NCBI RefSeq assembly: GCF_002943565.1
Contig: NZ_PJCH01000005.1
Location: 558,001 to 622,000, forward strand
DNA length: 64,000 bases
Reading direction: 5' to 3'
DNA from: Hyphococcus luteus
GTDB taxonomy: Bacteria > Pseudomonadota > Alphaproteobacteria > Caulobacterales > Parvularculaceae
A program made the translations under genes and the position numbers. Below are positions 4,205-43,859 of this stretch, piece after piece. Each line of letters begins with the position of its first letter. The first letter of the stretch is position 1. The notes beneath the pieces are model-generated. The model was not told the origin of the DNA, made no database searches, and saw only the letters and a list, made by a program, of their open reading frames with translations.

Positions 4205-5167
4205 TCAAACATTCGCGCCCATGAGGCGCCGGCACAGATCGTCGAGCTGGTCGAGGGTGAGATAGTTGATCGTCACCGAGCCCGCGCCTTTTTTCGAATG
4301 ATCGATGGCGACGTCGAGCCCCAGAATATTGGAGAGATCGCGCTCAAGGGCGCGCGTGTCGGCGTCTTTCGATCCGCTCGAAGCCTTTGATTTTTCTTCT
4401 GTTTTCGCCGCGCCACCGGCGGTTTTGCCGGCGCTGGCGCCGCCTTTGATCTCGGCCTCCGCCTGGCGGATATGGGCTTCCGTTTCGCGCACCGAGAGCC
4501 CGCCTTTGAGGACGATATCGAGCATCTGTTTCGGCGCGGAAGAGCCGAGCAGGGCGCGCGCATGGCCCATTGTGATCTCGTTCGCGGAGAGCGCATCGAG
4601 CGCCTTTTTCGGCAGGTTCAAGAGCCGCATGATGTTCGCCACATGGCTGCGGGATTTGCCGACGGCTTTTGCGATGTCGTCCTGGGTGCGCCCGAAGACG
4701 TCGGCGAGGCGCGCATAGGCGGCGGCCTCTTCCACGGGGTTCAAATCCACCCGCTGCACGTTTTCGATGAGGGCGATCTCCGCCGTCTCTTCATCCGTCA
4801 GCTCACGGATGATCACCGGGACCTTGTGAAGCTGCGCCTTTTGCGCCGCGCGCCAGCGCCGCTCGCCGGCGACGATCTCATAGCTGTCCTGGCCTTGCGG
4901 ACGCACGAGGATCGGCTGCAGCATGCCTTTCGAAGAGATGGAGTTCGCCAGTTCCTCAATGGCGTCCTTGTCGAAGGTGCGGCGCGGCTGGTCGGCGTTG
5001 GCTTTGAGCTGCTCGATGGGGAGCTCGCGCTTCGGGCCGGGCGCCGCCGCGCCTTCGCGGGACGGGGAGCCGGGAACCGGCTTCGTCGCCGTCACGTCGC
5101 CCAGAAGCGCATCGAGGCCGCGCCCCAATCCCTTCATGCCGCTTTTCTTTTTCTCCGCCGCCGCCAT
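4205..5167 (-). CDS. parB: Chromosome-partitioning protein ParB
   Basis: CTP-dependent DNA clamp that loads at parS and spreads to build the segregation complex. The 320 residues contain the conserved N-terminal GLGRGLDALLG, the ParB/Srx CTP-binding motifs GERRWRA (101-107) and ENVQR (135-139), a helix-turn-helix around 163-182 that would read the parS sites found 1.4-4.5 kb away, an Ala/Lys-rich linker and a C-terminal dimerisation domain. It lies 27 bp downstream of parA in the same operon. Confidence 0.97.
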   Translation of the reverse strand: MAAAEKKKSGMKGLGRGLDALLGDVTATKPVPGSPSREGAAAPGPKRELPIEQLKANADQPRRTFDKDAIEELANSISSKGMLQPILVRPQGQDSYEIVAGERRWRAAQKAQLHKVPVIIRELTDEETAEIALIENVQRVDLNPVEEAAAYARLADVFGRTQDDIAKAVGKSRSHVANIMRLLNLPKKALDALSANEITMGHARALLGSSAPKQMLDIVLKGGLSVRETEAHIRQAEAEIKGGASAGKTAGGAAKTEEKSKASSGSKDADTRALERDLSNILGLDVAIDHSKKGAGSVTINYLTLDQLDDLCRRLMGANV

Positions 5168-5194
5168 GACGTCGCTTTCCTTCTACGCCGCTCT

Positions 5195-6010
5195 CTAGGC
5201 GGCTTGGGGGCGCGCGCGTTCGCGCTGGATGACTTCCGAGGCGAGCTGGATATAGGCTTGGCTGCCCGGACATTTGAGATCGTAAAGAAGCGCCGGCTTG
5301 CCATGGCTGGGCGCTTCGGAAATCCTGACATTGCGCGGGATCACGGTCGTATAGACCTTGTCGCCGAAATGGCCGCGCACGTCGTCCTCGACCTGGTTCG
5401 TGAGCTTGTTGCGCCGGTCATGCATGGTGAGGACCACCCCTTGCAGTTCGAGCGCCGGATTGATCCTGGTGCGGACCGTCTCGATGGTGCGCATGATCTG
5501 CGACAGGCCTTCGAGCGCGAAGAACTCGCATTGCAAGGGGATGATCACCGCGTGGGCCGCAGAAAGGGCGTTCACCGTCAACAGGCTCAAAGAGGGCGGG
5601 CAGTCGATCAGGATATAGCTGACCCCCTGGCCGGCCTCGGAGGCCGCATATTCCTCGATGGCGTCGGCGAGGCGGAAATGGCGCCGCTCGGCGTCGATAA
5701 GCTCGATTTCCGCGCCGGCGAGATCGACCCCGGCCGGAGCGAGGAGGAGGCCCGGAATGTCGCTTTCGGCCACTGCGGCCTCGAGCCGGTAATCGCCGGA
5801 GAGGACTTCATAAGTGGTGACGCCCCGGTCGGCCGCGGAAATGCCGAGCCCGGTGGAGGCGTTGCCCTGCGGGTCGAGATCGATGAGCAACACCTTTTCG
5901 CCGACGGCGGCGAGGGCGGTCGCGAGATTGATCGCGGTCGTCGTCTTGCCGACGCCGCCCTTCTGGTTGGCGATAGCGAGAATCCGTGGAGTGGCGCTGT
6001 TACCGGACAC
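5195..6010 (-). CDS. parA: Chromosome-partitioning ATPase ParA
   Basis: Walker-type ATPase that forms the nucleoid-bound gradient pulling ParB-parS complexes to the cell pole. The 271-residue protein shows the deviant Walker A motif KGGVGKTT (17-24), the Walker A' region LIDLDPQGNAST and Walker B IDCPPSLSLLT. The start overlaps the end of rsmG by 11 bp, which implies translational coupling within mnmG-rsmG-parA-parB. Length and motifs match chromosomal ParA (Soj) rather than the larger plasmid types. Confidence 0.97.
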   Translation of the reverse strand: MSGNSATPRILAIANQKGGVGKTTTAINLATALAAVGEKVLLIDLDPQGNASTGLGISAADRGVTTYEVLSGDYRLEAAVAESDIPGLLLAPAGVDLAGAEIELIDAERRHFRLADAIEEYAASEAGQGVSYILIDCPPSLSLLTVNALSAAHAVIIPLQCEFFALEGLSQIMRTIETVRTRINPALELQGVVLTMHDRRNKLTNQVEDDVRGHFGDKVYTTVIPRNVRISEAPSHGKPALLYDLKCPGSQAYIQLASEVIQRERARPQAA

Positions 6011-6623
6011 GGGCGAGATTTCCGATTTCTAAAATGGCGGCGCGCGGGTCTGTGCGGCTCGGATGTTTTATGACGTTCATATGCCAATATTTAGCGGCCT
6101 CGGTCAATTCACCCTCAACATCTTGTCCCTTGAGAAAGTAATACTTCGTCTTTTTGCCAGCCAATCCAGCGCTATAGCCAAGTAATTTGTCAAGGCGGGC
6201 GAGGGCGCGGGCGGTGACGATATCGGGCTTAAAGCCAAGCCGGGCGGACTCGATTCGCTCCGGTATGACCTGCAAATTTTTTATCCCCATGGCGGCGCCG
6301 GCCTCGGTCAGAAAGGCGCATTTCTTCTGCGTCGATTCGATCAGCGTCACCTGAACGCCTTCCGGCTCCAGCATGGCGGCGAGAACGAGGCCCGGAAAAC
6401 CGGCGCCGGAACCGAGATCGACGAGTGTTTTTGCGCTCTCGGGCAGCAGCGGAACGAGCTGCGCGGAATCCAAGTAATGCCGATGCCACCGGTCTTTTAT
6501 GGTCGAGCGCGCCACGAGATTGTGCCGCTCCGACCAATCGATCAGCACACGGTCCATTTCCAGAAGACGCTCGAATGTTTCACGTGGAACATTCGTTTCC
6601 GCCAGGAACTCCTCAGGGGTCAT
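6000..6623 (-). CDS. rsmG: 16S rRNA (guanine-N7)-methyltransferase RsmG (GidB)
   Basis: Methylates N7 of a conserved guanine in 16S rRNA (G527 in E. coli numbering) using SAM. The 207-residue protein carries the SAM-binding motif [11 protein letters not shown] and the typical early RsmG sequence [10 protein letters not shown]. That early stretch (V12-T16) is encoded by a parS site at 6576-6591, so the same bases serve both as codons and as a ParB target. Its start overlaps the mnmG stop by 4 bp (ATGA). Confidence 0.96.
6576..6591. promoter_or_regulatory. parS site 1 (inside rsmG)
   Basis: TGTTTCACGTGGAACA matches the bacterial parS consensus TGTTYCACGTGRAACA in all positions. It lies within the first 20 codons of rsmG and encodes VPRET there. 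It is the parS closest to parAB. Confidence 0.93.
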
Positions 6624-8647
6624 CCCGCCGCCTTCGCGTTCTTCTTCACCCAGGCCAGCAGCAGCGCCAGCGCCGCCGGGGTCACCCCTTCGATGCGCCC
6701 GGCCTGACCGAGGGTCGCGGGCCGGGCGTCGAGAAGCTTCGCCCGCACCTCATTGGACAGACCGGAGATCGCGCCATAGTCGAGATCGGCGGGAAGCCGC
6801 AAGCTTTCGTCCCTTTTGAAGGCGACGATGTCCGCCTCCTGCCGATGGAGATAACCGGCATAGAGCGCGTCGAAAGCCAATTGTTCCGCAACCGCATCGG
6901 GCATCTCGCCCAATTCCGGCCAGATCGCCGTCAGGGCCGCCAGATCGACTCCGGGCAGGGCCAGAAGATCGATCACCGAGCGCCGCCGGCCATCCTTGTT
7001 GAGCTTCAGCCCGTATTTTTCGGCCTCATTAGGGGTCAGCGTCGTCTCGCCCGCCCAGATCCGCGCCGCGTCGAGCGCCGATTGTTTCACGTGAAACATC
7101 TCGGCTCTACGCTCGCCCACAATCTCCGCCGCGATCCCGATGGGCGTCAGGCGCTGGTCGGCGTTGTCGGCGCGCAAGGTGAGGCGGTATTCCGCGCGGC
7201 TCGTGAACATGCGGTACGGTTCTGTGACTCCGTTGGTTACAAGATCATCGATCATCACGCCGATATAGGCTTGCGCCCGATCCAAGGTGAAGGGCTCGCC
7301 GCCAGTCGCCGACCGGGCGGCGTTGACCCCGGCTATCAGCCCCTGCGCCGCCGCTTCTTCATAGCCGGTGGTGCCGTTGATCTGGCCCGCCAGGAAAAGC
7401 CCGGGCAGGGCCCGCGTCTCCAGCGTCCGGGTCAGGGAGCGCGGGTCCACATAGTCATATTCGATGGCGTAGCCGTAGCGGACCACTTCGGCGCGCTCGA
7501 GGCCGGGGATGGTCTTCAGAAACGCCGCCTGGACGTCCTCCGGCAGCGAGGTCGAGATCCCGTTGGGGTATACCGTGGGGTCGTCGAGGCCTTCCGGCTC
7601 CAGGAAAATCTGGTGGCTGTCGCGCTCGGCGAAGCGCACCACCTTGTCCTCGATGGAGGGGCAATAGCGCGGGCCCCGGCCCGAGACGGCGCCCCCATAG
7701 ACCGCGGATTTACTGAGGTTCGCCTCGATGATCTTGTGGGTCTCGGGGGTCGTATAGGTGATCCCGCAGGAGATTTGCGGCACCTCTATGCGCTCAGTCA
7801 GGAAAGAGAAGGGGACAGGGCTTTCGTCCGCCGGCTGCATCTCCAGCCGCTCCCAGTCGATGGTCCGCCCGTCGAGGCGCGCCGGGGTGCCGGTCTTCAG
7901 GCGACCCATTTTAAGCCCGAGCCCGTAGAGCCGGTCGGACAGGCCCACGGCCGGCGCCTCGACCCCACCGCCCCATTCCTTATTGGCGGCGCGGGCGTTG
8001 GCCCGGCCCGCCGGAATGCGCTTCTCGCCAATATGGATGACGCCCTTGAGGAAGGTCCCGGTGGTCAGCACCACCGCCTTTGCGCGGATTTCGGTCCCGT
8101 CGGCGGTTACAATTCCCGTGACGCACTCACCCCCTCCGTCCGCTTCGCGGACACCTCCCCCGTAAACGGGGGAGGAGGATTGCCCTTCTTCTCTTCCCCC
8201 GCTTGCGGGGGAAGTCCCGGCGAAGCCGGGGATGGGGGTTTGTGTTCCACGTGGAACATCTTCGACAATCAGGTCCTCCACCGCGGCCTCGAGAATATCG
8301 AGCCCCGGATAGCCGCTGAGGATCTCCTGCATGGTCTCGCGATAGAGCCTGCGGTCGGCCTGGGCGCGCGGGCCCCGCACCGCCGGGCCCTTGGAGCGGT
8401 TCAGCATGCGGAACTGGATGCCGGCCTTGTCGATGACCCGGCCCATGAGCCCGTCCAGGGCGTCGACCTCGCGCACCAGATGGCCCTTGCCGAGCCCGCC
8501 AATGGCCGGATTGCAGGACATCTCGCCGATCGTGTCGCGCCGGTGGGTGGCGAGGAGCGTGCGCGCGCCGGCGCGGGCCGCAGCGGCTGCAGCCTCGCAT
8601 CCGGCGTGTCCGCCGCCGATCACGATGACATCGTAGTCTCTGGTCAT
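6620..8647 (-). CDS. mnmG: tRNA uridine-5-carboxymethylaminomethyl enzyme MnmG (GidA) with an in-frame insertion
   Basis: FAD enzyme that, with MnmE, modifies wobble uridine 34 of several tRNAs. An N-terminal dinucleotide-binding motif [13 protein letters not shown], the [11 protein letters not shown] signature (41-51) and the C-terminal GidA helical domain are present. At 675 residues it is about 45 longer than usual. The excess sits at residues ~130-174, a Gly/Ser/Pro-rich stretch translated from a cluster of perfect DNA palindromes plus a parS site. Sequence on both sides is normal MnmG and the frame is intact. A second parS (7083-7098) encodes FHVKQ further along. Confidence 0.96.
7083..7098. 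promoter_or_regulatory. parS site 2 (inside mnmG)
   Basis: TGTTTCACGTGAAACA is the fully symmetric parS palindrome. It is translated in mnmG as FHVKQ, so it is under both protein and DNA constraint. Confidence 0.93.
8138..8232. repeat. REP-like cluster of four palindromes within mnmG
   Basis: Four consecutive inverted repeats occur in 95 bp. GTCCGC/GCGGAC spans 8138-8152. CCTCCCCCGT/ACGGGGGAGG, with a 2-bp loop, spans 8154-8175. TTCCCCCGC/GCGGGGGAA spans 8194-8213. CCCGGC/GCCGGG spans 8216-8230. This looks like a mobile palindromic repeat normally found between genes; here it is read in frame as part of MnmG. A degenerate relative lies at 55925-55963 and another palindrome pair at 10596-10653. 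Confidence 0.85.
8243..8258. promoter_or_regulatory. parS site 3 (at the edge of the mnmG insertion)
   Basis: TGTTCCACGTGGAACA is a fully symmetric parS variant. It directly abuts the palindrome cluster and encodes the first residues (VPRGT) of the extra segment of MnmG, so it may have arrived with the insertion or marked its target. Confidence 0.92.
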
Positions 8648-8728
8648 AACTTCACTTTCGCGCGCCCATATAGGCGGGACGCTCGCGCTTGGAAACGGCT
8701 TTTGCCGTTTCGGGTGAGGGCGCCGGAA

Positions 8729-8744
8729 TGTTTCACGTGGAACA
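8729..8744. promoter_or_regulatory. parS site 4 (intergenic)
   Basis: TGTTTCACGTGGAACA lies in the 274-bp gap upstream of mnmG. It is the only one of the six parS sites outside a coding region. The rest of the gap holds the presumed mnmG promoter; I could not pick convincing -35/-10 boxes. Confidence 0.92.
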
Positions 8745-8921
8745 GCCTAAAGCCTCCCCGGAAGGCGGGGATAGATTTTCATGTCACGAATTGTTGCGGT
8801 TTTACCGGGCCTCAGCCTGGAAGTTTACAAATGCGAAAGTAAACGCCGCGCCGCCCGTTTCGGGCATGGCGGCTGCAATACGCCCCCGGCTTGTGCGCAA
8901 CAAACAGAGAAGGGGTGCGAC

Positions 8922-9176
8922 ATGGCTCAGTCAGGTACTTTGCGTTCAAGGGGGAAACCGCTTTTCGGAGAGGCTGTCGCGCCTTGCCCGGAAAAGACGC
9001 CGGATCTGGCCGCCGAGCTCAACCGGCGGCTGAGAGAGAAATACCGCAATTACGAGCGGGCCGCCCTGCGGCTGGAGCTCAGGGGGGATTACGACTCCGC
9101 CCAGGTCTTGCGCCGGGCGGCAGGCCGGGCGCGGCTCCTCAGGAACCGCCCGGCGAATGACCGGGGCATGGGTTAG
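8922..9176 (+). CDS. Small hypothetical protein (84 aa)
   Basis: I do not recognise a family. I chose the ATG at 8922 because GAGAAGGGG lies just upstream as a ribosome site; the same frame is open further upstream to 8781 but that part looks non-coding. The C-terminal half (from PDLAAELNRRLREKYRNYER) is a charged, Arg/Leu-rich amphipathic helix pair, which suggests a small helical cytoplasmic protein, perhaps binding nucleic acid or a partner. It is the only plus-strand gene among the mnmG/mnmE group and converges on mnmE with a 23-bp gap. Confidence 0.6.
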   Translation: MAQSGTLRSRGKPLFGEAVAPCPEKTPDLAAELNRRLREKYRNYERAALRLELRGDYDSAQVLRRAAGRARLLRNRPANDRGMG

Positions 9177-9199
9177 CAGGCGGAGTTTGGGGCTGGCGC

Positions 9200-10582
9200 C
9201 TATTTCCCGATACAAAAACTCGAGAAAATCTCGCCGAGGACATCCTCCACGCCCACGGCGCCGGTGATCTTGCCGAGCGCCCGGGCGGCGAGGCGGGCGT
9301 CTTCCGCGGCGAGCTCCGGCGCCGTCTCGATATTGGCCTCGGCGCGGGAGAGAGCCCCGAGGGCTTCCTCCACCGCGGCGGCATGCCGGGCGCGGGTGAG
9401 GGCGGGGCCGTCGGACGCCCCTTCAGCGGCCTTCTGTGTCAGCGCATGAAGGAGCGCGGCCATACCTTCGCCGGTCTTCGCCGAGACGGCGAGCTCGGTG
9501 AAGGGCGATTGTTCTCTTTCAGGACGGGTTTCGGCCCCTTTTGCGATGTCGGCCTTGTTCCAGGCGATGATGTCGCCGGGTTTCAAGAGAGCCAATGTTT
9601 CACGTGAAACACTCATCGTTTCGCCCTCAAGAATTGTTTCACGTGGAACATCTTCCGAAGCGTCGAGAACGAGCACGCGAATATCCGCCGCCGCCGCTTT
9701 CTGGCGCGCGCGCTTTATGCCTTCCGCTTCAATGACATCCCCGGCCATACCGCGGAGCCCCGCGGTGTCGGCGACGCTCGCCGCCATGCCGGCGAGATCG
9801 AGCCGGGTCTCGACGACATCCCGCGTCGTCCCCGCGATGTCGGAGACGATGGCGACTTCCGAACCGGCGAGCGCATTCATCAGGGATGACTTGCCGGCGT
9901 TGGGCGGACCGATGATCGCGATCGAGACGCCCTCGCGGATCTTCCGTGCACGGACCGACTGGTTAAGAAACGCGGTTAACGAACTCTTAAGGTTTTTTAT
10001 GGCGGGCCCGGCCCGGGTCGCGACGGCGGCGGGAACGTCCCCTTCGTCGGGAAAATCGATGTCCGCTTCGAGGGGCGCCAGGACGTCGAGGACCTGCTGG
10101 CGCCAGCCTTCCGCAGCCTCGGAAAGCCGCCCGTCGAGCTGACCCAAAGCCTGCATTCTTTGTAGGGTCGTTTCGGAATCGATAAGATCGGCGAGAGCCT
10201 CGACCTGGGCGAGATCGAGCTTGCCGTTCCGGAGCGCGCGGAGGGTGAATTCGCCGGCTTCGGCGGGCCGGGCGCCGAGCCGCGCGAGGGCTTCGTAAAG
10301 GGCCGTTTCGACTGCGCGGCTGCCATGGAGATGGAGCTCGGCGACGTCCTCGCCGGTGAAGCTCGCCGGTCCTTCGAAAAGTATAGCCAGACCGCGGTCG
10401 ATCACGGCGCGGCTTTCCGGATCGCACACGCTCACCATATGCGCGGCGCGGTTATCAATCCGTTTACCAACTAACTGATTGAAAATCCCGAACGCGTCGG
10501 GACCCGACAGGCGAAACACGGCGACGCCGGCCTTCCCAGCGCCGGAGGCGCGGGCGAAAATCGTGTCGCTCCGCTCTGACAT
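9200..10582 (-). CDS. mnmE: tRNA modification GTPase MnmE (TrmE)
   Basis: Potassium-activated GTPase that partners MnmG to modify tRNA wobble uridines. The 460 residues show the N-terminal tetrahydrofolate-binding domain, the helical domain, an inserted G domain with G1 GPPNAGKS (225-232) and G3 DTAG (272-275), and the invariant C-terminal CIGK (457-460). Two parS sites (9596-9611 and 9635-9650) lie in the G domain and are read as SVSRET and DVPRET. Length is normal for the family. Confidence 0.97.
   Translation of the reverse strand: MSERSDTIFARASGAGKAGVAVFRLSGPDAFGIFNQLVGKRIDNRAAHMVSVCDPESRAVIDRGLAILFEGPASFTGEDVAELHLHGSRAVETALYEALARLGARPAEAGEFTLRALRNGKLDLAQVEALADLIDSETTLQRMQALGQLDGRLSEAAEGWRQQVLDVLAPLEADIDFPDEGDVPAAVATRAGPAIKNLKSSLTAFLNQSVRARKIREGVSIAIIGPPNAGKSSLMNALAGSEVAIVSDIAGTTRDVVETRLDLAGMAASVADTAGLRGMAGDVIEAEGIKRARQKAAAADIRVLVLDASEDVPRETILEGETMSVSRETLALLKPGDIIAWNKADIAKGAETRPEREQSPFTELAVSAKTGEGMAALLHALTQKAAEGASDGPALTRARHAAAVEEALGALSRAEANIETAPELAAEDARLAARALGKITGAVGVEDVLGEIFSSFCIGK
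9596..9611. promoter_or_regulatory. parS site 5 (inside mnmE)
   Basis: TGTTTCACGTGAAACA, fully symmetric. It is translated as VSRET in MnmE and lies 24 bp from site 6. Confidence 0.93.
9635..9650. promoter_or_regulatory. parS site 6 (inside mnmE)
   Basis: TGTTTCACGTGGAACA, translated as VPRET in MnmE. With site 5 it forms a close pair 39 bp apart start to start, a tandem arrangement not shared by the other four sites. Confidence 0.93.
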
Positions 10583-30151: not shown

Positions 30152-30598
30152 TCAGAAGGGTTTCACGATCACCATGATCACGATGACGATCATGGCGAGG
30201 AAGGGAGCCTCGTTCATCATGCGCCAGAATTTTTCGGTGCGCGGGCGCTCGCCCTTTTCGAATTTCCGGCGCGACGAAGCGTAATAGCCATGGATCGCCG
30301 AAATCGCCACCACCAGCGCGAGTTTCACATGGAACCAGCCCTGGCTCAGGATCGCCGGATTAGCGATCAGCATCAAAATGCCGAGCACCCAGACGAAGAT
30401 CATAGACGGGTTGATGATGCCTTTAAGGAGCCGGCGCTGCATCTGGATGAAATAGCGCTCCGCCTCGCCGCCCTTTTCCGACTGGTGCTGGTAAACGAAG
30501 AGACGCGGCAGATACATCATGCCCGCCATCCAGGCGATCACGAAGATCAGATGCGCGGATTTAATCCACAGATAAATCCCGGAGAGAAATTCGGCCAT
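30152..30598 (-). CDS. hemJ: Protoporphyrinogen IX oxidase HemJ
   Basis: Membrane heme-containing oxidase that makes protoporphyrin IX, replacing HemG/HemY in most alphaproteobacteria. The 148-residue, four-helix membrane protein has the conserved start (YLWIKSAHLIFVIAWMAGMMYLPRLFVYQH), including the heme-ligand-type His in SAHLI, and ends near FWRMMNEAPF. Its ATG overlaps the hemE stop by one base (TGATG), so both heme-pathway enzymes are co-translated. Confidence 0.94.
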   Translation of the reverse strand: MAEFLSGIYLWIKSAHLIFVIAWMAGMMYLPRLFVYQHQSEKGGEAERYFIQMQRRLLKGIINPSMIFVWVLGILMLIANPAILSQGWFHVKLALVVAISAIHGYYASSRRKFEKGERPRTEKFWRMMNEAPFLAMIVIVIMVIVKPF

Positions 30599-31632
30599 CA
30601 GCCGTTCCTTCGCACGAAGTCGACCAGCGCCGCCACATGTTCCGGCGGCGTCTGGGGCGTGAACCCATGGCCCAGATTGAAGATATAGGGAACGTCATGG
30701 AAGAGCTTCAGATAAACATCTGCGGCTTCCTCCATAGGCTTGCCGCCCGGTATGACCAGCAGCGGATCGAGACCGCCCTGAACCACGACGCGCTCACCGA
30801 GATTGCCGCGCGCCCAGCCCGGATCCATGGCGTAATCGACGCCATACCCGTCGCAGCCCTGTAAAAGCGCATATTCCGTCGCCTTCTCGCCGACGCCTTT
30901 GGGGAAAAGGATCACCGGCGTATCCGGCCGCGCTTTTTTCACCGCGCGGGAAATCCTGTCGAGCGGTCTGACCGAGACCGCATCGAGCACCGGCCAAGGC
31001 AGACCGCCCGCCCAGGTGTCGAAAAGCTGCACCGCATCCGCGCCGGCGTCGATCTGCGCGATCAGATAATCGATGGTTTTATCCGCAAGGACGTCGATGA
31101 GCCCGGTCACGAACTCCGGCTCCTCGTAAAAGCGTTGGCGCAACACGCCCGGATCCTTCATGGGCCCGCCGGCCATCATGTAAGTGGCGACGGTCCAGGG
31201 CGCGCCGGCGAACCCGATCAGCGCCTTGTCCTTTGAAAGCGCCGCCTTGGTTTTCGAAACCGTCTCGAATACCGGCGCCAAGGGTTCGAGAACGTCACGG
31301 TCCCGAAAGCGCTTAACCTCTTCAAGGCTTACGGGGGGATCGAGCTTCGGCCCTTCATTTTCGACGAAACTCAACTTCTGTCCCAGCGCATGCGGGATCA
31401 GGAGAATGTCGGCGAAGAGGATCGCCGCATCGAGATCGAAGCGGCGCACTGGCTGCAACGTCACTTCGCTCGCCAGCGCCGGATCGAAGCAAAGATCGAG
31501 GAACGATCCCGCTTGCGCTCGAAGCTTTCTATATTCGGGAAGATACCGTCCCGCCTGACGCATGAACCAGATCGGCGGAGAGGAGAATGTTTCTCCTTCA
31601 AAGACCCTGAGGAATTTCGATGAGACTGCCAT
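30598..31632 (-). CDS. hemE: Uroporphyrinogen decarboxylase
   Basis: Decarboxylates uroporphyrinogen III to coproporphyrinogen III in the cytoplasm. The 344-residue protein has the PPIWFMRQAGRYLPEYR signature near the N-terminus, catalytic-Asp region FADILLIPHALG, and the GFAGAPWTVATYMMAGG motif. In Caulobacter the hemE promoter overlaps the chromosomal origin; here the upstream 400 bp have the same character, including a TTAA-N7-TTAA site 43-57 bp before the start. Confidence 0.97.
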   Translation of the reverse strand: MAVSSKFLRVFEGETFSSPPIWFMRQAGRYLPEYRKLRAQAGSFLDLCFDPALASEVTLQPVRRFDLDAAILFADILLIPHALGQKLSFVENEGPKLDPPVSLEEVKRFRDRDVLEPLAPVFETVSKTKAALSKDKALIGFAGAPWTVATYMMAGGPMKDPGVLRQRFYEEPEFVTGLIDVLADKTIDYLIAQIDAGADAVQLFDTWAGGLPWPVLDAVSVRPLDRISRAVKKARPDTPVILFPKGVGEKATEYALLQGCDGYGVDYAMDPGWARGNLGERVVVQGGLDPLLVIPGGKPMEEAADVYLKLFHDVPYIFNLGHGFTPQTPPEHVAALVDFVRRNG

Positions 31633-32033
31633 GAGACGTACAAAGGGTCCTTCTTAACCTTCTATAAAGGATTCTTAATAAAGGATTAATATGAAGAGTC
31701 AGGCGGGAAGCCGGGGAAAACAGCGAAGCGGCGATTTATCCTTCATCTTTGCAGAAAACCCTCACAGGAATTTCCCAAGATATTTCCGGGGGAATAAGGC
31801 TTCCCGGGTTTGTTGAAAACCCCTCCAAACGCCGCAAGCCACATGAAAAATTTTCACATCCCCTCCTTCAAAACTGGATTCCTCCCATGGACCGAGCCAT
31901 TCCGGGGATGGAGGTATGACCAGGCAAGATTTTCAGGTAGGGCTGGGCGCCGGACTGGTATGACTCGGAGGTTTTGCGGGGAAGGAAAAACGGGGTCGGC
32001 AAACGCCCGGGCTTTCCCCTATAGTTCCACAGG
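31633..32033. other. oriC: Probable chromosomal replication origin (Cori-type) between hemE and ppsR
   Basis: In Caulobacter and Rickettsia the origin lies between hemE and the RP001 gene (ppsR family), followed by maf, aroE and coaE; this window has the same arrangement. The 401-bp gap is non-coding and contains an A/T-rich tract (about 31650-31692) and a perfect CtrA site with a near copy 21 bp away. It also holds four GANTC (CcrM-type) sites (31670, 31696, 31877, 31962) and a TGAAAA-A-TTTTCA palindrome (31844-31856). DnaA boxes are weak by eye: TTATCC at 31737, TCCACA near 32026, and TTTTCAACA on the minus strand near 31813. Confidence 0.78.
31654..31689. promoter_or_regulatory. CtrA-type boxes upstream of hemE
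   Basis: TTAA-TAAAGGA-TTAA (31675-31689) is an exact TTAA-N7-TTAA CtrA site. TTAA-N7-TAAA (31654-31668) is a near copy whose start is 21 bp away, two helical turns. Both lie in the A/T-rich tract and overlap the direct repeat ATAAAGGATT (31664-31673 and 31678-31687). They would couple hemE transcription and origin firing to the cell cycle. Confidence 0.7.
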
Positions 32034-32912
32034 ATGAGCGAGCTTAAAGCGCATAAAGAGGAAGAGATGCGGACCGCGAAGAGACGGACGCCGCTCGCCA
32101 CCTATTTTCACGTTCATCTCGTTTCCGATTCCACCGGCGAGACCTTGAACGCCATGCTGAAAGCCACGGCCTCGCAATTCGCCGCGGCGAAACCGCTGGA
32201 ACATATCTATGCGCTGATCCGCTCAAGAGCGCAGATGGAGAAAACCCTCGCCGAGATCGAAGCTTCGCCGGGGCTGGTTCTTTATACGGTGATCAACCCG
32301 GATCTGCGTCGGCTCCTTGAAATCCGCTGCAGCGAGTTGCAAACCCCGGCGATCTCGGTCCTCGACCCGTTGCTCAACGCTTTCACCGATTATCTTGGCC
32401 TCGAACAATCCCTGCGGCCCGGCGCCCAGCACGAACTTAACGACGCTTATTTCAAACGCATCGCCGCGCTCGATTACACGCTTTCCCACGACGATGGGCA
32501 GATGGTGTGGGATCTCGAGCCTGCGGATGTCGTGCTGGTCGGGGTCAGCCGCACGTCGAAAACGCCGACCTGCATGTATCTGGCGAACCGCGGCGTGAAA
32601 GCCGCGAATGTGCCCCTGGTTCCCACGGCCGACCCGCCGCCGGAGCTTTTCAATCTTCGAAAACCGATGGTCATCGGACTGGTGGCAAGCCCCGAACGCC
32701 TGGCGCAGATCCGCCAGTCCCGGATCGGCGGCATGAACGCCGAAGGCGCGGCGGAGGAATATTCCGATCTCGAGCTCATCCGCCAAGAGGTCCTGAAAGC
32801 CAAGCGGCTTTTCGCCAAGCACCGCTGGCCGACCATCGACGTTACGCGCAAATCGGTCGAGGAAACCGCCGCAGCGATCCTCACCAAGCTTTCCGCCCGC
32901 CAGAACCAATAG
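32034..32912 (+). CDS. ppsR: Pyruvate, phosphate dikinase regulatory-family protein (DUF299/RP001)
   Basis: Bifunctional kinase/pyrophosphorylase family that switches PEP synthase or PPDK on and off using ADP and phosphate. The 292-residue protein has the family opening TYFHVHLVSDSTGETLNAMLKA and the P-loop-like VGVSRTSKTPTCMYLANRGVKAANVPLVP. The start at 32034 gives an 11-residue N-terminal extension; the ATG at 32067 with GAGGAAGAG before it is an equally good choice. No PEP synthase or PPDK gene is in the window. First gene right of the proposed origin. Confidence 0.93.
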   Translation: MSELKAHKEEEMRTAKRRTPLATYFHVHLVSDSTGETLNAMLKATASQFAAAKPLEHIYALIRSRAQMEKTLAEIEASPGLVLYTVINPDLRRLLEIRCSELQTPAISVLDPLLNAFTDYLGLEQSLRPGAQHELNDAYFKRIAALDYTLSHDDGQMVWDLEPADVVLVGVSRTSKTPTCMYLANRGVKAANVPLVPTADPPPELFNLRKPMVIGLVASPERLAQIRQSRIGGMNAEGAAEEYSDLELIRQEVLKAKRLFAKHRWPTIDVTRKSVEETAAAILTKLSARQNQ

Positions 32913-41972: not shown

Positions 41973-43859
41973 ATGATGTCCGTATCGATCATTCATGCGC
42001 CGCGCGACGAAGCGCTGGGAGAAAAAATCGCAGCCGCGCTGGCGAGCGCCGGGCATGCGAGCCGCAGGGTCAGCCCCGATCCCAATCTCGGCGATCTGCA
42101 GCTCGAAACGGAAACCGTGGTCGAGGATGACGACGAAACGGCGATCGTGGTCTGGACCGAAGCGGCGGCGAAACTTGCGCGCCTTCACCAGCAGGCCGGG
42201 GCGGCCATGGCTCGCGGGACCCTGATCCCCGTGGCCGTGGGCGGCGTGCGTCCGCCCGGCGGCTTTGAAGATCTTCCGCCGGTGGATCTGTCCGGCTGGA
42301 CCGGCGCGCCGGACGATCCGCGCTGGCGCTTCGTGCTCGAAGAAATCCAGCTTGCGAAAGAGCGCACGCTTTTAAAGGACGGCGAGGTCTGGGCCGCGCC
42401 CGATAATGACGAGGGAGACGCGGCGCCGGAAGAGGCCGCGCTTTACGCCCGGCCCTTCGTCGAAAAAGACGCAGAGCCGGAAACCATGGACGCGCCGCCG
42501 GCCTTCCTGGCGCGCCCGCAGCGTTCCGGCCTCGCCCGCCGGTTCAGCGCGCGCGAAGTGGCGATTGGCGCGACGGCGGGGCTGGTGGTCATGACGCTCG
42601 CCACGGCGTTTCTGGCGCCGCTGGTCCTGCCGGGGATCGAGCGCCGCCTATCGAATGCGATCGACGGCGGCGTTGAGCCGGACCGGAGCGCTGCGGCGGC
42701 GGGCGATCCGTCGCCGGATGCGGCGACAAATCTGGCGTCCCTGCGCCCTGTGCAAACGGAGGGCGCTCCGTCTACGGATGAAGAGGTTTCTCTGACGCCG
42801 GGGCTTCCGGAAGAAGAAGACGCTATCGCCGCGCTGATCGACAGCGAGGCGGCGGATGCGAATGAAGAAACGACGCCGACCTTTCCTGCGGCGGCGAATG
42901 AAACGCCTCTTGCGATGGAAGACGGCGCCGGTGACGATGGCGCGCCCGCAGAGACGGCGATCGCCGAGAGTGTTGAAACCGGCTCCGGCCAAACGCAAAC
43001 GGCCGCGCTGGACAGCGAAGGCATGGAGCGGCTGATCGCGTCAGTGAGCGACGAAGTGCAAGGAGAAGACGGGACGGAAGAAAATGCGTCGGCGCCTGAC
43101 GCTGCTGCGCAAGCGACTGGCGAGGACGGCTTTTTCCGTGATTGCGTCGACTGTCCCCAGATGGCGCGGCTGCCCGCGGGACGTTTCCGCATGGGCGCGG
43201 GACAAGGCGCGCGCGATCCCGCCGAAAGTCCGGCGCGCGACGTGACTATCGCCAATCCCTTCGCGATTGGCGTTCACGAAATCACCTATGAGGACTGGGC
43301 GCCTTGCGTCGAGGCCGGCGTCTGTCCGGCCGCGCCCGAGCATGGCTGGGGCGGCGGCCGACGCCCTGTGGTCAGCGTTTCTTACGAAGACGCGCAGACA
43401 TATGTCGGCTGGCTGTCGACCGTCACGGGCGAGGCCTATCGCCTGCCGAGCGAAGCGGAATGGGAATACGCCGCGCGGGCGGGAAGCGACAGCGCCTTCG
43501 CGTTCGGGCCGACCATCTCCGTCGATCAGGCGAATTTCAACGGTCAGTATCCTTATGGCGGCGGCAAAGGCGTGTTCCGTGAGCGGACGACCGAGGTTGC
43601 GAGCTTTCCGCCCAACGCCTTCGGGCTTTACGACATGCACGGCAACGCCTGGGAATGGACATCCGATTGCTGGAACCCGACCCATGCCGGCGCGCCGGGG
43701 GACGGGTCCGCGGTTGCGACGGGCGATTGCACGAAACATGTTCTAAAAGGCGGCGCCTGGAACACCGGCGGCTGGCGGCTGCGGTCGGCCCACCGTATCG
43801 GCAAGGCGTCGACCAAGCGCGAATTCGACAATGGCTTCCGCATCGCGCGGGATTTATAG
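41973..43859 (+). CDS. TIR-like / transmembrane / FGE-SUMF1-fold protein A
   Basis: A 628-residue three-part protein. Residues 3-130 resemble a TIR-like fold (SVSIIHAPRDEALGEKIAAAL, ETAIVVWTEAAAKL, GTLIPVAVGGVRPPGGF, PVDLSGW). A single membrane helix follows at about 197-221. Next come a very acidic low-complexity linker (230-385), a CVDC pair (391-394) and an FGE/SUMF1/PvdO-fold domain to the end (RLPSEAEWEYAARAG, GLYDMHGNAWEWTSDCW, NGFRIARDL). The usual TIR catalytic Glu position and both FGE catalytic cysteines appear absent, so a sensor/binding role is likelier than catalysis. Topology: TIR inside, FGE outside. Paralogue at 48465-50408. Confidence 0.82.
   Translation: MMSVSIIHAPRDEALGEKIAAALASAGHASRRVSPDPNLGDLQLETETVVEDDDETAIVVWTEAAAKLARLHQQAGAAMARGTLIPVAVGGVRPPGGFEDLPPVDLSGWTGAPDDPRWRFVLEEIQLAKERTLLKDGEVWAAPDNDEGDAAPEEAALYARPFVEKDAEPETMDAPPAFLARPQRSGLARRFSAREVAIGATAGLVVMTLATAFLAPLVLPGIERRLSNAIDGGVEPDRSAAAAGDPSPDAATNLASLRPVQTEGAPSTDEEVSLTPGLPEEEDAIAALIDSEAADANEETTPTFPAAANETPLAMEDGAGDDGAPAETAIAESVETGSGQTQTAALDSEGMERLIASVSDEVQGEDGTEENASAPDAAAQATGEDGFFRDCVDCPQMARLPAGRFRMGAGQGARDPAESPARDVTIANPFAIGVHEITYEDWAPCVEAGVCPAAPEHGWGGGRRPVVSVSYEDAQTYVGWLSTVTGEAYRLPSEAEWEYAARAGSDSAFAFGPTISVDQANFNGQYPYGGGKGVFRERTTEVASFPPNAFGLYDMHGNAWEWTSDCWNPTHAGAPGDGSAVATGDCTKHVLKGGAWNTGGWRLRSAHRIGKASTKREFDNGFRIARDL

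Follow-up and report, generated by a model that had tools for sequence, protein, structure and literature searches.

Where does chromosome replication start in the Parvularculaceae, a family whose records may count chromosome positions from dnaA, hundreds of kilobases from the locus considered here? An earlier note on this DNA had named the non-coding gap between hemE and ppsR as the Cori of this species. The window that we analyzed is the whole 64,000-nt stretch, G000:C12:558001-622000; the draft genome that it comes from totals 4.92 Mb in 16 contigs. Marinicaulis and Parvularcula MAGs are the closest relatives that bear a name, Marinicaulis being placed by NCBI in Hyphococcus (Parvularculaceae). 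The turn of the GC skew, the proximity of parS and parAB, synteny and a conserved CtrA site support the proposal, and with a probability of roughly 0.93 we place the oriC, of Cori type, of this marine alphaproteobacterium (Marinicaulis/Hyphococcus group) in the gap. A replication start at this position is strongly inferred rather than demonstrated.

Origins between hemE and the RP001/ppsR gene are a known kind, with precedents in Caulobacter and Rickettsia (PMC1914354). The gap adds a member, extending the CtrA-marked hemE origin to the Parvularculales. The parts most worth attention are a divergent DnaA and a 21-bp element.

The hemE–ppsR gap and its neighbours

The gap was described as 401 bp of non-coding DNA between divergent hemE and ppsR, the latter followed by maf, aroE and coaE, and this description is accurate (Table 1). 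An Rfam search returned no RNA. The name ppsR stands in part: the protein passes the cut-off of PRK05339, the PPDK/PEPS regulator subfamily, and misses that of the PpsR equivalog, so that 'ppsR' is a label of convenience.

The divergent pair flanks a gap in 109 of 110 loci of relatives (30 Parvularculaceae and 80 named loci, from partly overlapping genomes), and the remaining locus had no hemE within the fetched stretch. Gap length is 377–422 bp in 27 of 28 congeners. The blocks kept among these 28 are TATAAAGGANTCTTAATAAAGGATTAATAT near hemE, CGGGGAAAA, TTGAAAA, TTTTCA together with TGGGCGCC-N5-GGTATGAC, and TTTCCCCTATAGTTCC ahead of ppsR, and they cover the middle of the gap as well as its ends.

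Table 1. Features of the predicted origin and of the nearby segregation locus (window coordinates).
Feature	Position	Strand	Basis and remarks
Predicted chromosomal replication origin, hemE/ppsR intergenic gap	31633..32033	.	Skew turn, parS/parAB proximity, synteny, conserved blocks
hemE	30598..31632	-	PF01208; TIGR01464 above cut-off
ppsR / COG1806 / RP001-type gene (Kinase-PPPase; PPDK/PEPS regulator family)	32034..32912	+	PF03618; PRK05339 above cut-off
parB (4205-5167) and parA (5195-6010)	4205..6010	-	TIGR00180 above cut-off; ParA-family matches below cut-off; neighbours rsmG, mnmG, mnmE
Six exact parS (6576, 7083, 8243, 8729, 9596, 9635)	6576..9650	.	Genome-wide scan; rsmG-mnmG-mnmE stretch
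AT-rich tract, predicted unwinding element	31650..31699	.	Direct repeat ATAAAGGATT at 31664 and 31678
Exact CtrA site TTAATAAAGGATTAA (TTAA-N7-TTAA)	31675..31689	.	Motif scan; 22/28 congeners at aligned position
One-mismatch CtrA copies, overlapping	31654-31668 and 31664-31678		Motif scan
GANTC (CcrM-type methylation) site	31670..31674	.	24/28 congeners
Other GANTC sites	31696, 31877, 31962		15/28, 3/28 and 11/28 congeners, respectively
GTTTTCCCCGGC, candidate weak DnaA (W-type) box	31710..31721	-	GGGGAAA in 23/28 congeners, 12/17 other Parvularculaceae
Further TTCCCC	31789, 31978, 32014	-, -, +	Motif scan
TGGGCGCC-N5-GGTATGAC, conserved 21-bp putative element	31944..31964	+	Overlaps GANTC at 31962
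Predicted ppsR promoter TCGGCA-18-TATAGT	31996..32025	+	-10 end 8 nt ahead of ATG
AGTTCCACA, TCCACA core resembling the 3' six bases of the E. coli DnaA box	32023..32031	+	TCCCCA (W-box) here in most congeners

The GC skew turns at the gap

GC skew was computed from sampled stretches of the genomes. Within the window the cumulative skew drops until about 32–34 kb and rises afterwards. Sampled along the 1.2-Mb contig, 20-kb stretches have mostly negative skew left of the locus and mostly positive skew right of it; the exceptions are stretches of lower GC at 640–720 kb. When positions 520–780 kb were taken contiguously, the lowest 1-kb bin ended at 592,000 and the base-level minimum fell at 592,204 (window 34204), which puts it 2.2 kb outside the gap. 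A second dip, nearly as deep, occurs at about 677 kb. We rejected it as an origin: the GC content is lower there, and the relatives support no counterpart. The lower-GC stretches and disturbed skew around this dip span about 635–735 kb, and acquired DNA is possible there.

Three complete Parvularculaceae chromosomes, sampled all round, each turn at most about 1 kb from the same gap, with the opposite turn roughly half a chromosome off. For the complete congener G001 the local minimum over 40 kb falls within ppsR (1,256,262), some 0.5 kb beyond the gap, and the sampled stretches are negative left of the gap and positive right of it up to about 2.9 Mb. The minimum of G042 is at 3,156,714, in the gap, and that of G057 at 3,005,305, in ppsR; both reverse near 1.6 Mb, and G057 has one outlier negative stretch at 1.0 Mb.

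The position of the minimum in our own genome raises the question of whether replication starts a few kilobases outside the gap, for example in ppsR-maf-aroE-coaE, where that base-level minimum falls. These genes are coding and nearly gapless, the minima of the relatives scatter between the gap itself and a point 0.6 kb inside ppsR, and the cluster of origin-type motifs described below is confined to the gap. We consider a start outside the gap very improbable.

An origin beside dnaA and dnaN, often assumed in the numbering of records, is a common arrangement outside Alphaproteobacteria, and a skew minimum at dnaA would have spoken against the hemE–ppsR gap. The minimum is at hemE–ppsR in our genome and in the three complete relatives, and the skew does not turn at dnaA. 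In our genome dnaA (C12:1140437) and dnaN belong to the positive arm of the skew, some 550 kb away from its turn, and the corresponding distance from dnaA is about 490 kb in G001, 260 kb in G042 and 660 kb in G057. The complete G042 record does start at dnaA (G042:C1:411-1856), yet its skew minimum, at hemE–ppsR, is some 260 kb from there. Having examined the dnaA locus, we rejected it because of its place in the positive arm; of the readings considered here, an origin at dnaA seems to us barely credible.

The segregation locus lies 22–28 kb away

A genome-wide scan of the 4.9 Mb found six exact parS sites, all of them in the window and 22–25 kb from the gap; as a control, the reversed pattern gave one match per strand at ≤2 mismatches. 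Together with parAB (Table 1) the segregation locus is 22–28 kb from the gap. The same exact scan found no parS near dnaA in this genome, a further point against an origin there. In nine relatives parS clusters lie 6–25 kb from ppsR, with a few isolated exceptions.

CtrA sites, GANTC sites and an AT-rich tract

The exact TTAA-N7-TTAA site and near copy noticed earlier are both present, the near copies being two and overlapping. Together these make three CtrA sites in the gap, compared with 0.23 in dinucleotide shuffles, and none of 200 shuffles reached three. An exact site occurs somewhere in the gap of 26 of the 28 congeners (0.02 expected) and in 25 of 42 gaps of Caulobacterales and other Alphaproteobacteria. 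The genome encodes a CtrA orthologue at C10:272812, with 85% identity to a C. crescentus CtrA sequence. Only two exact CtrA sites exist in the whole window, against 0.11 expected; the other, at 9976-9990, is within mnmE and adjoins the parS cluster.

All four GANTC sites of the earlier note were recovered. At the genome's own density 0.55 would be expected in the gap, and in shuffles of the AT-richer gap sequence itself 1.75 (P about 0.08). The A/T-rich tract was also borne out: the 50 bp from 31650 rank among the lowest 0.03% of 50-mers in stability (564 kb sampled). This tract is the most conserved block of the region, with a mean conservation of 0.84 over 31663-31701. The short palindromes are present, as are repeats, and carry no weight on their own. 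Within the 564 kb, only this gap combines at least three TTCCCC, one exact CtrA site and three GANTC per 401 bp, by thresholds that were set after seeing the region.

Could these motifs instead serve transcription, the gap being only a bidirectional hemE/ppsR promoter and the origin lying elsewhere nearby? The gap does contain a promoter-like site with its -10 just ahead of the ppsR ATG, and the CtrA site is 43–57 nt from the hemE start, a possible position for a promoter regulator. Against a promoter alone stand a skew turn at this place in four genomes, a parS cluster nearby in ten, conserved blocks in mid-gap, and a gap of 377–422 bp in 27 of 28 congeners, and we regard this explanation as very unlikely. 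The layout TATARTTCCMCA-ATG is found in most congeners, and the ppsR transcript is probably leaderless, as judged from the promoter sequence. At 32020-32034 a -10 of the form TATARTTCC stands immediately before the ppsR ATG in most congeners.

Candidate weak DnaA boxes and a divergent DnaA

The main gap in the original argument was said to be its weak DnaA boxes, and rightly so. Neither the DnaA box TTATCCACA nor the G-box TGATCCACA occurs in the 401-bp gap, even at one mismatch; the W-box TCCCCA has no copy there; and the IHF site WATCAANNNNTTR has no match in the gap and is found in one of 28 congeners. Scans of our gap for canonical DnaA, G-box, W-box and IHF sites gave nothing above shuffles. 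The IHF site is not known to be kept outside the close relatives of Caulobacter, and we therefore treat it as optional.

What the gap does contain is TTCCCC, in four copies against 1.45 in shuffles, one of them within the conserved candidate box GTTTTCCCCGGC. Over the gaps of the genus TTTCCCC (35 copies vs 6.9) and TCCACA are enriched relative to shuffles, and over those of Caulobacterales TTATCCCC and TTGTCCCC are. The TTCCMCA at the ppsR ATG could be part of the promoter instead of a DnaA box. Caulobacter uses weak W-boxes, defined as TCCCCA, along with G-boxes (PMC4285127, PMC4468827), so that a weak-box origin is to be expected, and in this gap even the weak boxes are degenerate.

The initiator itself has diverged. 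Our DnaA (C12:1140437-1141810, L002) scores 299 bits on TIGR00362, the DnaA equivalog model, whose cut-off is 343.9. None of 62 Parvularculaceae genomes passes this cut-off, their full-length matches scoring 223–328 bits, whereas 139 of 143 Alphaproteobacteria genomes pass it, mostly with 500–590 bits. DnaN passes its cut-off in all 59 Parvularculaceae genomes where it was found, so that the low DnaA scores do not reflect models that generally work poorly for this family. DnaA identity between genera is 29–34%, compared with 63–68% for PpsR in the same pairs. The protein retains Walker A, DDIHF and the RDHTTV core of the DNA-binding domain, and on these motifs it should remain an ATP-dependent, box-binding initiator. 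The helix-turn-helix lacks one G (GGRDHTTV to xRDHTTV); we do not count this as an oddity, since the DnaA chain 3pvp also aligns without it. Most Parvularculaceae genomes also encode small proteins (about 130–190 aa) with only a helix-turn-helix like that of DnaA domain IV, in ours at C8:29716-29961.

With so divergent a DnaA the standard box consensus may not apply. A plausible background to the missing canonical boxes is the combination of weak TCCCC-type boxes, as in Caulobacter (PMC4285127), with this DnaA, and our hypothesis is that the Parvularculaceae box has itself changed. The 21-bp element TGGGCGCC-N5-GGTATGAC has one exact copy in the 4.9-Mb genome, and its GGGCGCC core is present in 27 of 28 congeners, mostly 82–92 bp ahead of ppsR. 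GGCGCC by itself is frequent in the genome (0.8 per 401 bp), so that what stands out is just the long element and the constancy of its position. The core CGGTATGAC also occurs in Aquisalinus gaps, and Brevundimonas gaps often contain GGCGCC. A tentative and rather doubtful extension is that DnaA and origin drifted together in Parvularculaceae: the fast-evolving DnaA might read an altered weak box like TTTTCCCC instead of TTATCCACA, and the lineage-specific element might bind an origin factor, in an otherwise Caulobacter-type origin. An origin devoid of canonical boxes alongside a divergent DnaA is a natural system in which to study how an essential initiator and its binding sites change together.

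A proposed working of the origin

Our computations directly show where the gap lies, its synteny, the skew turn, the nearby parS, the conserved CtrA site and the AT-rich tract; for protein binding, melting, repression and methylation at the gap, each step below is modelled on Caulobacter (PMC1914354, PMC4468827). DnaA would bind several weak boxes that share the core TCC(C/A)C and are scattered through the gap, and would melt the AT-rich tract beside hemE (31650-31699). In the non-replicating phase phosphorylated CtrA would prevent initiation from its exact site at 31675-31689, within this tract and beside the hemE promoter. The overlap of site and tract suggests that CtrA may repress both by preventing melting and by denying access to DnaA. 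New and old DNA would be told apart by CcrM-type methylation of GANTC; ParA and ParB, working through the parS cluster 22–25 kb off, would then separate the replicated origins.

Comparison with known origins

The closest parallel is the Cori of Caulobacter crescentus (hemE-RP001/CC0001), which shares both flanking genes, an AT-rich tract, CtrA sites of the form TTAA-N7-TTAA, GANTC, a nearby parS/parAB locus and a dnaA located away from the origin. Caulobacter has five CtrA sites, in contrast to one exact site and two near copies here, and our gap differs in having no G-box, exact W-box or IHF match. The distance from parS to the origin is 22–25 kb here and about 8 kb in Caulobacter (PMC4468827).

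In Hyphomonas neptunium marker frequency peaks near hemE, parAB and parS are nearby (PMC6650430), and ChIP places CtrA on DNA adjoining that origin (PMC7200025). That origin was placed by experiment; its skew was ambiguous, whereas here the skew is clear. The predicted origins of Rickettsia and Wolbachia also have hemE at one edge, contain CtrA sites and are AT-richer than their genomes (PMC1914354). Unlike our gap they mostly have DnaA and IHF consensus sites, and Wolbachia has lost the hemE-COG1806 pairing that is kept here.

Elsewhere in the window, the protein encoded at 41973-43859 combines an FGE-sulfatase domain with a weak match to TIR at its N-terminus.
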